A stretch of 55,522 nucleotides of DNA. It comes from Chthonomonadaceae bacterium. GTDB lineage: Bacteria > Armatimonadota > Chthonomonadetes > Chthonomonadales > Chthonomonadaceae. The notes under the pieces are model-generated. The model did no database searches and was not told the origin of the DNA. It saw only the letters and a program-made list of their open reading frames with translations. The translations under genes and the position numbers were made by a program. This document shows, piece after piece, positions 25,021 to 52,271 of this stretch. How positions within the stretch are numbered: the first letter of the stretch is position 1; each line of letters begins with the position of its first letter. The stretch spans positions 1 to 55,522 of the forward strand of contig JANWZQ010000092.1 in NCBI GenBank assembly GCA_025054835.1, given 5' to 3'.

Positions 25021-25644
25021 ATTAACAGAGACTTCCGTGTCAACGAACAACTGTTGCGCGGGCCACGAGAACAGCGACCGCGCGAGGTGCTCGTCATCGA
25101 CGAAGAGGGTCAGAAGCTCGGGATCATGGGGGTGCGCGAGGCGCTGACCCTCGCTCAGGAAAAGGGGCTGGACCTGATTGAAGTATCTCCCAATATGAAC
25201 CCGCCCGTCTGCCGCTTGATGGACTACGGCAAGTACAAGTATGAGCAGGGACGGCGGGAACGAGAGCAGCAACGTAAGAACCGGCATCAGGAAATCAAAA
25301 GCATCAAAATGGGGCCCGCGACGGCAGAACACGACTTTCAGGTGCGTGTACGTCAGGCACTGGAGTTCCTGAAGAAGGGCGATAAAGTCCGGGTTATCGT
25401 GCAGTTCAAAGGCCGCCAGATCACCCACCCGGAGCTGGCCAAGCGTCTCCTGGATCGCATGGTGGAGGCTACTGCAGAGGTTGGTATCGTGGAGAAGCCT
25501 GCGGCCATGGAAGCGCGCATGATGGTGTTGCAACTCACTCCGAAGCCGGAAGCACAACGCTCCGCAGAACCCAGACCGACGCCCTCCAGGCCTGCATCTC
25601 CCCCCCAGCCGGGGCTCTCCGCCGCGCCAAAGGACACAACCTGA
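25021..25644 (+). CDS. infC: translation initiation factor IF-3, with ATT start codon
   Basis: IF-3 binds the 30S subunit, promotes initiator tRNA selection and prevents premature subunit joining. The N-terminal domain starts INRDFRVNEQL, and the linker and C-terminal domain are clear (SPNMNPPVCRLMDYGKYKYEQ; FKGRQITHPELAKRLLDRM). The conserved N-terminus begins at ATT 25021, seven bases after GGAGGG. No ATG/GTG/TTG lies between the SD and that point, so the start is the rare AUU, as in E. coli infC, where it allows IF-3 to repress its own translation. The 207-aa product has a proline-rich tail of about 40 residues beyond the usual end. Confidence 0.95.
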   Translation: MNRDFRVNEQLLRGPREQRPREVLVIDEEGQKLGIMGVREALTLAQEKGLDLIEVSPNMNPPVCRLMDYGKYKYEQGRREREQQRKNRHQEIKSIKMGPATAEHDFQVRVRQALEFLKKGDKVRVIVQFKGRQITHPELAKRLLDRMVEATAEVGIVEKPAAMEARMMVLQLTPKPEAQRSAEPRPTPSRPASPPQPGLSAAPKDTT

Positions 25645-25794: not shown

Positions 25795-25998
25795 ATGAAA
25801 GTCAAGTTGAAGACGCGCAAGACGGTTGTGAAACGCTTCACCCGATCCGCTACCGGCAAGCTGATGCGTGGCAAAACGGGATTGAACCACCTGATGCGCA
25901 AGAAAGATGGCTCCCGTCGTCGCGCCCTGATCGCAGGCGGCGAGCTGTACAAAGGGGATCGCAAGCGCATTCTGAGGATGCTCGGCGAGCCCAGATAG
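25795..25998 (+). CDS. rpmI: 50S ribosomal protein L35
   Basis: A 67-aa basic protein, full length for L35. TRKTVVKRFTRSATGKLMRGKTGLNHLMRKKDGSRRRAL matches the KTxxxxxKRFKxTxxGKxxR...HxxxxKxxxRxR pattern of the family, and the end DRKRILRMLGEPR matches the usual KxIKxMLP tail. It sits in the conserved infC-rpmI-rplT order. The N-terminus MKVKLKT differs from the common MPKMKT. Confidence 0.94.
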   Translation: MKVKLKTRKTVVKRFTRSATGKLMRGKTGLNHLMRKKDGSRRRALIAGGELYKGDRKRILRMLGEPR

Positions 25999-26026: not shown

Positions 26027-26386
26027 ATGCCGCGTGTGAAACGTGGGGTCATGGTACATAAGCGGCACCGGAAGGTGCTCGACGCCGCGTCCGGATACTG
26101 GGGCGCAAAACACCGCCTGTTCAAAGCCGCCAATGAGCAGGTGATGAAGTCGGGCAACTACGCCTATCGCGATCGGCGTGCCCGCAAGCGCGATTTCCGG
26201 CGTCTGTGGATCACCCGGATCAGCGCCGCTTGCCGCGCGGAGGGACTGCAGTACTGTCGCTTCATTGAGGGCCTGCACAGGGCCGGTATCGCCCTCGATC
26301 GCAAAGTGATGGCAGAGATGGCTTTTTCCGACCCGGAGGCGTTCCGGCAGCTGATCGCCCGGGCGACCAGCGCACTGAGCGCCTGA
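26027..26386 (+). CDS. rplT: 50S ribosomal protein L20
   Basis: A 119-aa ribosomal protein L20, needed early in 50S assembly and in many bacteria the autogenous repressor of the rpmI-rplT message. It begins MPRVKRGVMVHKRHRKVLDAASGYWGAKH and contains YRDRRARKRDFRRLWITRISAACR, the family signature. GAAAGGAG precedes the ATG. It follows rpmI by 28 bp. Confidence 0.96.
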   Translation: MPRVKRGVMVHKRHRKVLDAASGYWGAKHRLFKAANEQVMKSGNYAYRDRRARKRDFRRLWITRISAACRAEGLQYCRFIEGLHRAGIALDRKVMAEMAFSDPEAFRQLIARATSALSA

Positions 26387-26546: not shown

Positions 26547-27542
26547 TTGGCAGACACCATCGATCAAATGGTCCGGGATGCAGAAGCCGCCATGGAAGCC
26601 GCCCGCACAACGGCCGATCTGAACGCCGTGGAGACCCGGTACCTGGGGCGAAACAAAGGATTGAATGAGTTGCGTCGCTCCATCGGCACGCTCCCCCCGG
26701 AGGAGCGCCCGGCATTCGGGGCCCGTCTGAATGCCGCAGTCGCAGCGTTGACCGAAAAACTGGCCGCCCGTCGCGCAGAGCTGGAGGCGCGTGAGCTGCA
26801 AGAACGATTGGCTGTGGAACGCGTGGATGTGACGCTGCCCGGTCGCCCGATGCCGGTAGGACGATTGCATCCACTGACGCAGACCGCAGACCAGATCAAG
26901 CGTGTCCTCATCGGCATGGGCTATGAGTTTGTAGATGGCCCGGAGCTGGAGGACTACGCCTATAACTTCGCTGCGCTCAACTACCCGGAAGACCACCCGG
27001 CCATGGATGAGCAGAACTCTTTCTTCGTGACCGACACGCGGTTGCTGCGCACGCAAACCACCGCGTTGCAGGGCCGGGTCATGGCGCACCGTCGTCCCCC
27101 CTTCCGGATCGCAACAATTGGGCGCTGCTTCCGCTACGAGGCGGTCGACGCCACCCACCACCACACATTCCATCAGGTCGACGTGTTCATGGTAGACCGG
27201 GGAATCGGGATGTCCGATCTGAAGGGAACGCTGGGTGCATTCGCGCGTGCGCTGTTTGGCCATGACACACAGGTGCGTTTCCGTCCCGACTTCTTCCCCT
27301 TTGTGGAGCCCGGTGTGGACTACGCGATCGCCTGGAAGGGCCGCTGGCTGGAGCTGGGCGGCGCCGGCCTGATCCATCCCAGCATCCTGCGCGCCTACGG
27401 GATCGACACGGAGCAGTACAGCGGCTTCGCGTTCGGGCTGGGTGTGGAACGGATCCATATGATCCAGACCGGAGTGAACGATCTGCGACTCTACCTGGAG
27501 AACGACCTGCGGTTCCTCCGGCAATTCGGACACTTCATCTGA
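26547..27542 (+). CDS. pheS: phenylalanine-tRNA ligase alpha subunit
   Basis: Class II aminoacyl-tRNA synthetase alpha chain, 331 aa, which charges tRNA-Phe as part of an alpha2beta2 enzyme. An N-terminal coiled coil (residues 5-95) is followed by the catalytic core: LHPLTQTADQIKRVLIGMGYEF, motif 2 FRYEAVDATHHHTFHQVD, and motif 3 GFAFGLGVERI. The start is TTG 26547, with GGAGG nine bases upstream; the conserved N-terminus begins there. pheT follows after 15 bp, the normal gene order. Confidence 0.95.
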   Translation: MADTIDQMVRDAEAAMEAARTTADLNAVETRYLGRNKGLNELRRSIGTLPPEERPAFGARLNAAVAALTEKLAARRAELEARELQERLAVERVDVTLPGRPMPVGRLHPLTQTADQIKRVLIGMGYEFVDGPELEDYAYNFAALNYPEDHPAMDEQNSFFVTDTRLLRTQTTALQGRVMAHRRPPFRIATIGRCFRYEAVDATHHHTFHQVDVFMVDRGIGMSDLKGTLGAFARALFGHDTQVRFRPDFFPFVEPGVDYAIAWKGRWLELGGAGLIHPSILRAYGIDTEQYSGFAFGLGVERIHMIQTGVNDLRLYLENDLRFLRQFGHFI

Positions 27543-27557
27543 GCAAGGAACAGGCTC

Positions 27558-29705
27558 ATGCGTGTACCTGTGGAGTGGTTGAAGCAGTTTGTTCCCGTGC
27601 AGGCGTCCGCCGAGGAAATCGCCACGCGCCTGACGATGGGGGGCCTGGAAGTCGAGGGGCTCGAAACCGCGGAAGAGGTGTACCACCGCGCGCTCCGGGA
27701 AGGATGTTCGGAGGAGGTAGCGCACGCCGCGGCAGCGCTGGCTCCCGTGCTGGACGTGTACGTGACTCCGAACCGGGGCGACTGCAATTCCGTGATCGGT
27801 GTGGCGCGCGAAGTAGCCGCGCTCTACAACCTGCCTCTGACCCTGCCACACATTCCCCCATCGGTAGAGGGAGACGAGGCCGCCCGCCAGACCTCGGTAC
27901 AGATCGAGGATCTCCACGCCTGCCCTCGCTACGCGGCGCGCCTGGTGCGCGACGTCCGGATCGCTCCATCGCCGGTCTGGATGCAGGCGCGACTGCTGGC
28001 AACGGGACAACGCCCCATCAATAACGTGGTGGACGTGACGAACTACGTGATGCTGGAGATGGGGCAACCGTTGCATGCCTTTGATCTGGACCGGCTGGAA
28101 GAGGGCCGGATCGTGGTGCGGCGCGCACGCACAGGAGAAGTCCTGCGCACGCTGGACGGTGTGGCACGCACTCTTGCCCCCGATATGCTGATCATCGCCG
28201 ACGCACGCCGCCCTGTCGCGGTCGCCGGGGTGATGGGCGGGGCCGACTCGGAAGTTGACGAGGTAACCCGTAACATCCTGCTGGAAGCAGCGCACTTTGA
28301 CCCGCGGGTTGTGCGACGCACGGCACGCGATCTGGGTCTTCGGACCGAGGCCTCATACCGTTTCGAGCGCGTGGTGGACCCGAACGGGGTGCGTCGGGCC
28401 GCAGATCGTGCCTGTGCTCTGTTCGTAGAAATCGGTCTTCCGCTGGCCGTACCCGGAGTGGTGGACGTCTACCCGAACCCAATGCGAGAGCGTACGGTGC
28501 GCGTGCGGGTCTCCCGGGCCGCACAACTGCTGGGCATGGAGATCTCCTGCACGACCGCGATGGAATGCTTGCAACGCCTCGGCCTCACTGCAGCACCGGA
28601 TGGGAACGACTCGCTGCAGGTGACCGTTCCGACATTCCGGCCCGACATCACTCTGGAAGAGGATCTGATCGAGGAAATTGGCCGGGTTCACGGCTATGAG
28701 AACATCCCGGAGACCCTGCCAATCGGAGCCACCACACAGGGAGGGGATAGCGCGGAAGGGCGCTTCCTGACCACGCTGCGACAGCACCTTGTGCAGTGCG
28801 GCTTGCAGGAGGTGACCACGCACAGCCTCACTCCCCCGTTCCCCTTCGACCCACCGGAGGATGTCACACGCCGGGTGATGGTGCGCAACGCGCTCTCAGC
28901 AGAGATCAGCGTCCTGCGTCGTTCGCTTCTGCCCGGCCTTCTGGACGTAGCCCATCACAATGTCAAGCATGGCGTGACCGCCATGGGTCTGTTCGAGATC
29001 GGACGCGTCTGGCAGAACGAGGGAGAGGCCGGAGAGGTGGTTCCGGCGGAACACCTCGCAGTCGGCGGTCTGGTCGTCGGCGCGTTCTGGCCCTCCGGGT
29101 GGCAGAAAGAGGGAGCACCTCCTGTTGCGGACTTCGGTACGGCCCGGGGGATCGTAGAGCGCCTGTGCGCCGGTCTGGGGATCCCGGAACTGAAGTGCCT
29201 GCCTCCGGACGCGCAGCCCGGTTCCCTGCCACAGTTCCATCCGGGGCGCACCGCCTGGATCTTTCTGGGAGACGCCGGGCCGGCCGGGGTGGTCGGCGAG
29301 GTTCACCCCCGTGTGTCTGCAGAGATGCGATTGCGCGACCGCGTCTATGTATTTGAGTTGCGTGTGGATGCCTTGCAGAACGCGATACCCCCGGAGGGAC
29401 CACGCTACCTGCCGCTCTCTCCCTTCCCTTCTGTCGTGAGGGACCTCGCTCCACGCATCCCGGAGGAAGTCCCCTACGCCGAAGTCGATGCGGCTGTGCG
29501 CGCCGCGGAAGCGCCGCATCTGGAGCATTTCTATCTCACGGACCTGTACCGGGGGCATCCACTGCCGGAAGGGCTCAAGAGCCTGACACTGCGTTTCACG
29601 TTTCGCTCGACCGAACGCACCCTCTCGGACGCAGACGTCAACGATGCGCTCTCTCGCATCCGTACGTCACTGGAAACGCGCTGCCGGGCTACTTTCGTGG
29701 CCTAG
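27558..29705 (+). CDS. pheT: phenylalanine-tRNA ligase beta subunit lacking the tRNA-binding (EMAP) domain
   Basis: Beta chain of the Phe-tRNA synthetase, 715 aa, against about 790-800 aa in most bacteria. Present are the N-terminal VPVEWLKQFV...GGLEVEG start, the B3/B4 region (TPNRGDCNSVIGVAREVAAL), the B5 domain (about residues 315-390), the catalytic-like core, and the C-terminal FDX-ACB anticodon-binding domain (LSPFPSVVRDLAP...). GLEVEG at residue 29 is joined to TPNRGDC at residue 69 by only about 34 residues. In E. coli PheT about 130 residues lie between those points, including the OB-fold tRNA-binding domain. The domain is therefore missing, with no frameshift or stop visible. Confidence 0.95.
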   Translation: MRVPVEWLKQFVPVQASAEEIATRLTMGGLEVEGLETAEEVYHRALREGCSEEVAHAAAALAPVLDVYVTPNRGDCNSVIGVAREVAALYNLPLTLPHIPPSVEGDEAARQTSVQIEDLHACPRYAARLVRDVRIAPSPVWMQARLLATGQRPINNVVDVTNYVMLEMGQPLHAFDLDRLEEGRIVVRRARTGEVLRTLDGVARTLAPDMLIIADARRPVAVAGVMGGADSEVDEVTRNILLEAAHFDPRVVRRTARDLGLRTEASYRFERVVDPNGVRRAADRACALFVEIGLPLAVPGVVDVYPNPMRERTVRVRVSRAAQLLGMEISCTTAMECLQRLGLTAAPDGNDSLQVTVPTFRPDITLEEDLIEEIGRVHGYENIPETLPIGATTQGGDSAEGRFLTTLRQHLVQCGLQEVTTHSLTPPFPFDPPEDVTRRVMVRNALSAEISVLRRSLLPGLLDVAHHNVKHGVTAMGLFEIGRVWQNEGEAGEVVPAEHLAVGGLVVGAFWPSGWQKEGAPPVADFGTARGIVERLCAGLGIPELKCLPPDAQPGSLPQFHPGRTAWIFLGDAGPAGVVGEVHPRVSAEMRLRDRVYVFELRVDALQNAIPPEGPRYLPLSPFPSVVRDLAPRIPEEVPYAEVDAAVRAAEAPHLEHFYLTDLYRGHPLPEGLKSLTLRFTFRSTERTLSDADVNDALSRIRTSLETRCRATFVA

Positions 29706-51973: not shown

Positions 51974-52045
51974 GGGCGAATAGCTCAGCGGTAGAGCGCT
52001 TCGTTTACACCGAAGATGTCCGGGGTTCGAATCCCTGTTCGCCCA
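51974..52045 (+). tRNA. tRNA-Val (anticodon TAC)
   Basis: A complete cloverleaf of 72 bases: acceptor GGGCGAA with TTCGCCC, D arm GCTC-GAGC, anticodon stem CTTCG/CGAAG enclosing TTTACAC with anticodon TAC, and T loop TTCGAAT. The discriminator base is A. CCA is not encoded, so a CCA-adding enzyme is needed. Confidence 0.97.
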
Positions 52046-52143
52046 TGCGAACCATCAGAAAGCGCTCTGAAAGGCGTCGGGTGCGCAGGCACAACAGAAA
52101 TCGGGGATACAAGTTCACCGGTTCTGTTGCCTGTGTTGCAAGT

Positions 52144-52216
52144 GGGGGTGTAGCTCAGTGGTTAGAGTGCCTGCCTGTCACGCAGGAAGTCGCGGGTTCA
52201 AGTCCCGTCATCCCCG
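52144..52216 (+). tRNA. tRNA-Asp (anticodon GTC)
   Basis: A 73-base cloverleaf: acceptor GGGGGTG with CATCCCC, anticodon stem CCTGC/GCAGG enclosing CTGTCAC with anticodon GTC, T stem GCGGG and loop TTCAAGT, discriminator G. CCA is not encoded. It is 98 bases downstream of tRNA-Val and probably shares its transcript. Confidence 0.97.
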
Positions 52217-52271
52217 TTTCTGATGTTGCCCACGTATTCTCTGGATCTCAGGGAGTTTTCGATTTTGTGAG

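Follow-up and report, generated by a model that had tools for sequence, protein, structure and literature searches.

A bacterial-type phenylalanyl-tRNA synthetase beta subunit without the B2 OB-fold domain in Armatimonadota

Results

Gene cluster and domain content of PheT

The window, by which we mean the whole stretch of 55,522 nucleotides that was analysed, is contig 76 of a 202-contig draft genome (3.7 Mb, 97% complete) of a Chthonomonadaceae bacterium. It carries infC-rpmI-rplT-pheS-pheT, the standard bacterial cluster (Table 1). The pheT reading frame starts with ATG and lies next to pheS, the product of which retains its N-terminal and catalytic domains according to Pfam. An Rfam scan of the window detected only two tRNAs, tRNA-Val (tac) at 51974-52045 and tRNA-Asp (gtc) at 52143-52217, as the sole RNA families; a leader RNA was not found.

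Table 1. Features of the pheT locus in the window.
Feature	Position	Strand	Basis
pheT, phenylalanine--tRNA ligase beta subunit without B2 (EMAPII-like OB-fold), 715 aa	27558..29705	+	ORF, Pfam, NCBIfam, alignment, model
Part of B1 N-terminal domain, residues 1-36, ending in GLEVEGLE	27558..27665	+	alignment; matches Thermus 1-37
Linker at the place of B2, residues 37-62, two modelled helices	27666..27743	+	alignment, gap measure, model
B3/4 editing domain, residues 121-292	27918..28433	+	Pfam B3_4, alignment
B5 domain, residues 314-380	28497..28697	+	Pfam
Catalytic-like module B6-B7 (CLM), residues 383-602	28704..29363	+	Pfam
B8 FDX-ACB anticodon-binding domain, residues 621-712	29418..29693	+	Pfam
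pheS, alpha subunit, 331 aa, N-terminal domain and catalytic core	26547..27542	+	PF02912, PF01409
rplT (L20), conserved neighbour	26027..26386	+	sequence inspection
rpmI (L35), conserved neighbour	25795..25998	+	sequence inspection
infC (IF3), conserved neighbour, start codon tentative	25054..25644	+	sequence inspection

An initial annotation of this DNA had proposed that PheT lacks the OB-fold domain B2, and our analyses agree: a Pfam scan gave no match to the B2 profile tRNA_bind (PF01588), the gap between B1 and B3 measures 27 residues, and the alignment with Thermus PheT points to the same conclusion. In this alignment residues 1-37 correspond to Thermus 1-37 and residue 63 to Thermus 154, approximately 116 Thermus residues being reduced to 25. 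The motif GLEVEG occupies residues 29-34, as first placed, and TPNRGDC residues 70-76 rather than 69; the distance between them, originally estimated at about 34 residues, is 35.

The protein otherwise resembles the bacterial PheRS beta subunits of known structure (Thermus thermophilus, E. coli and Staphylococcus haemolyticus) in having B1, the B3/4 editing site, B5, the CLM and B8, and differs from them in the absence of B2 and in its length (715 versus 785-845 aa). Its score against the bacterial model TIGR00472 (pheT_bact) is far above the cut-off (589.4 versus 402.65 bits, E 1e-176), the main match beginning at model position 160, and the gene order with pheS is likewise that of the bacterial type. 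B2 is usual but not universal in bacterial PheRS beta, and its presence is not decisive for membership of TIGR00472.

Archaeal and eukaryotic PheRS also lack B2. The likeness to these enzymes drawn in the initial annotation holds for this shared absence, and B5 and the CLM are of common ancestry with archaeal/eukaryotic cytosolic PheRS beta (TIGR00471; human 3l4g). The remainder of the protein is of the bacterial type: it scores 103.7 bits against TIGR00471, below the cut-off of 282.65, and keeps B8 and the bacterial His261.

Short PheT in the Armatimonadota

PheT loci that were read at the sequence level were divided into long and short forms by the B1-to-B3 gap, which was bimodal (2-27 versus 116-151 residues) with no intermediate values. 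The window PheT has the gap of 27, and all other short loci have 2-11 residues. PF01588 was found in seven of 33 aligned rows, equal to the number of long PheTs among the 33.

The PheTs of genomes of the same family, mostly 48-60% identical to that of the window, have the same short type of junction, and all PheT relatives that were read within the order are of the short form. A PheT search matched 275 of 291 Armatimonadota genomes. Among the matches listed, the rows starting at residue 1 extend over no more than about 2.2 kb, too little to accommodate B2, and all full-length matches are short PheTs of about 680-715 aa.

Since the genome is a 202-contig draft, an assembly gap, chimera or sequencing error could be thought to have deleted B2. 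However, the frame is open through the B1-B3 junction, and the short form is common to more than 100 PheTs from other Armatimonadota genomes, one of which consists of a single contig (G002). As the same junction occurs in independent genomes of the family, the order and the phylum, the domain is truly absent, as had been supposed from the open frame, and an artefact can practically be dismissed.

In three genomes of one Armatimonadota family (f4; G031, G045 and G058) the PheT matches were weak and confined to the C-terminal half, with frames of 565-639 aa; these PheTs look archaeal-type. Weak C-terminal-half matches were also obtained in the Acidobacteriota sample (G306, G311, G346 and G362) and in many Nitrospirota. 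Most frames in the three groups have about 565-640 aa, some of those in Acidobacteriota being longer. The weakly matching genomes of these three groups suggest a replacement by PheRS of the archaeal/eukaryotic type.

An insert at the former B2 site

The linker of the window PheT is about 16-21 residues longer than those of its relatives (gap of 27 versus 6-11 within the order), and two confident helices are modelled in it, at residues 38-47 and 52-59. The insert of about 21 residues is confined to the window genome among the relatives read. No second copy of the insert DNA was found in the window genome, and an origin by duplication of other genomic DNA was therefore rejected. A short alignment match (CSEE) would make the insert a remnant of B2; we judged this match to be due to chance, because close relatives lack the insert and because it is helical in the model. 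The plain reading is that of a surface insertion at a tolerant site.

Distribution outside the phylum

Each of the 61 Chloroflexota genomes searched was matched, and their whole frames are of the long type; the sampled Chloroflexota keep B2. Most frames and spans in 70 Acidobacteriota genomes fit a short PheT, and all ten loci that were read at the sequence level (L112-L121) are short, so that the short form is apparently the rule in this phylum. The Nitrospirota are mixed, with long, short and archaeal-type PheT, as are the Margulisbacteria, part of which have the short form. In one Bacillota phylum, frame length and match span point to a short PheT in about five of the 51 genomes. The absence of B2 is also on record for many PheRS beta subunits of the CPR (Mukai et al. 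2017, PMC5370408). The window PheT resembles these in being of bacterial type without the B2 OB-fold and differs in coming from another phylum, a likeness that is drawn from the published statement. The description of such a subunit as unusual in a bacterial tetramer is accordingly true in relative terms only, the short form being the rule in the Armatimonadota, apparently also in the Acidobacteriota, and occurring in members of the Nitrospirota, Margulisbacteria, Bacillota and CPR.

Origins of the short form

Trees were built from PheT without its N-terminus. The short forms of Armatimonadota, Acidobacteriota and Nitrospirota were placed apart in them, and five changes of form were needed in a tree of 69 rows and three in a more careful tree of 34 rows, the trees being unrooted and the counts blind to gain versus loss. 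A single clade of all short forms was rejected by the AU test (p-AU 0.0136), and no bootstrap tree of the 34 rows had a single origin. Short PheT has more than one origin and, given the rejection of a single one, B2 was probably lost repeatedly.

It could also be argued that the absence of B2 is ancestral in the short lineages and that the long forms gained the domain later. The B2-less archaeal/eukaryotic enzymes would fit this, as would the human subunit 3l4g_B, which has only 589 aa, and the nearly equal length of the short junction (6 residues) across three phyla. However, the short PheTs of the Nitrospirota are nested in a supported group that also contains long Nitrospirota and Deltaproteobacteria, and this is most simply read as a local loss. 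We consider an ancestral absence improbable.

One PheT from a MAG labelled Armatimonadetes (L105) grouped with Bacillota in a quick tree, without strong support; this could be due to transfer, misbinning or a mislabelled genome.

The editing site and the search for OB-folds elsewhere

The Tyr-editing site of Thermus PheRS beta comprises Thr249, Asn250, His261, Gly315, Glu323 and Glu334 (PMC3275996), which align with Thr161, Asn162, His173, Gly224, Glu232 and Glu243 of the window PheT. Five of these do not vary among the 52 short forms read and hardly vary in the long forms; the sixth, Glu232, is kept in 49 of the 52. The short forms show no greater variability in the B3/4 domain than the long ones (mean entropy 1.23 versus 1.35 bits). 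A model of the beta subunit alone had a mean pLDDT of 90 and matched full-length bacterial PheT chains with Z mostly 45-48 over approximately 656-686 residues.

A profile search of the window genome gave one PF01588 match, at the C-terminus of MetG. Neither a stand-alone substitute for B2, nor a second PheT copy, nor a trans-acting OB-fold protein beyond MetG was found in this genome. Of the 31 genomes of the order, 29, that of the window among them, have a single PF01588 match, located in a MetG-size frame; the other two (G010 and G013) have a second, free-standing copy. In the 2.1 Mb genome of Nitrospirae JdFR-81 (G293, locus L070) PF01588 was matched nowhere, so that both a B2 in PheT and a C-terminal OB domain of the MetG type went undetected.

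A separate OB-fold tRNA-binding protein resembling Trbp111 or CsaA might fill the role of B2 in trans, and free-standing PF01588 proteins of 114-141 aa are indeed present in six genomes with short PheT (G291, G292, G296, G297, G010 and G013). In the window genome and 28 others of the order, however, the single PF01588 lies in the MetG-size frame, and although a missed gene is possible in a genome that is 97% complete, it is improbable across the entire order. We therefore hold a substitute in trans to be very improbable.

Discussion

From our analyses we conclude that, very probably, the window encodes a functional bacterial-type PheRS beta subunit, an ancestor of the Armatimonadota having lost B2, as other bacterial lineages did separately. 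The enzyme would be an alpha2beta2 tetramer that binds tRNAPhe through the N-terminal domain of the alpha subunit and through B8. B2 would be an accessory module that aids editing and is dispensable for charging; on this premise we infer that aminoacylation of tRNAPhe by the short PheRS is normal and that Tyr-tRNAPhe continues to be cleared at the B3/4 site. The retention of the editing residues, the B3/4 domain that is no more variable than in long forms, the confident model and the occurrence of PF01588 in MetG only all favour a normal PheRS that would charge and edit without B2.

The dispensable RNA-binding domain of PheRS reportedly contributes to editing, as the title of the 2006 work of Roy and Ibba has it, and editing could thus have been weakened or lost along with B2, leaving a PheRS poor in proofreading. 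This seems unlikely, as the editing residues are equally conserved in short and long forms and the entropy of B3/4 is not raised in the short ones. A further reading appears quite unlikely to us: that after separate losses in whole phyla (Armatimonadota and Acidobacteriota) and in parts of others, compensating changes in PheRS or tRNAPhe keep editing efficient, with the two-helix insert of the window PheT taking part.

The lack of B2 is no peculiarity of this genome. It is an ordinary lineage trait of the Armatimonadota, a B2-less PheT being normal throughout the phylum as well as in several further groups of bacteria. In the literature collection that was searched, no paper stated a phylum-wide pattern of B2-less PheT, and none treated PheRS and B2 in Acidobacteria. 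Bacterial PheRS without B2 has, however, been recorded before, and the biology is in this respect unsurprising. Our results caution against taking the absence of the domain in draft genomes of this kind for an annotation error. Natural B2-less PheRS in large free-living phyla are ready test cases for the role of the OB-fold in editing.
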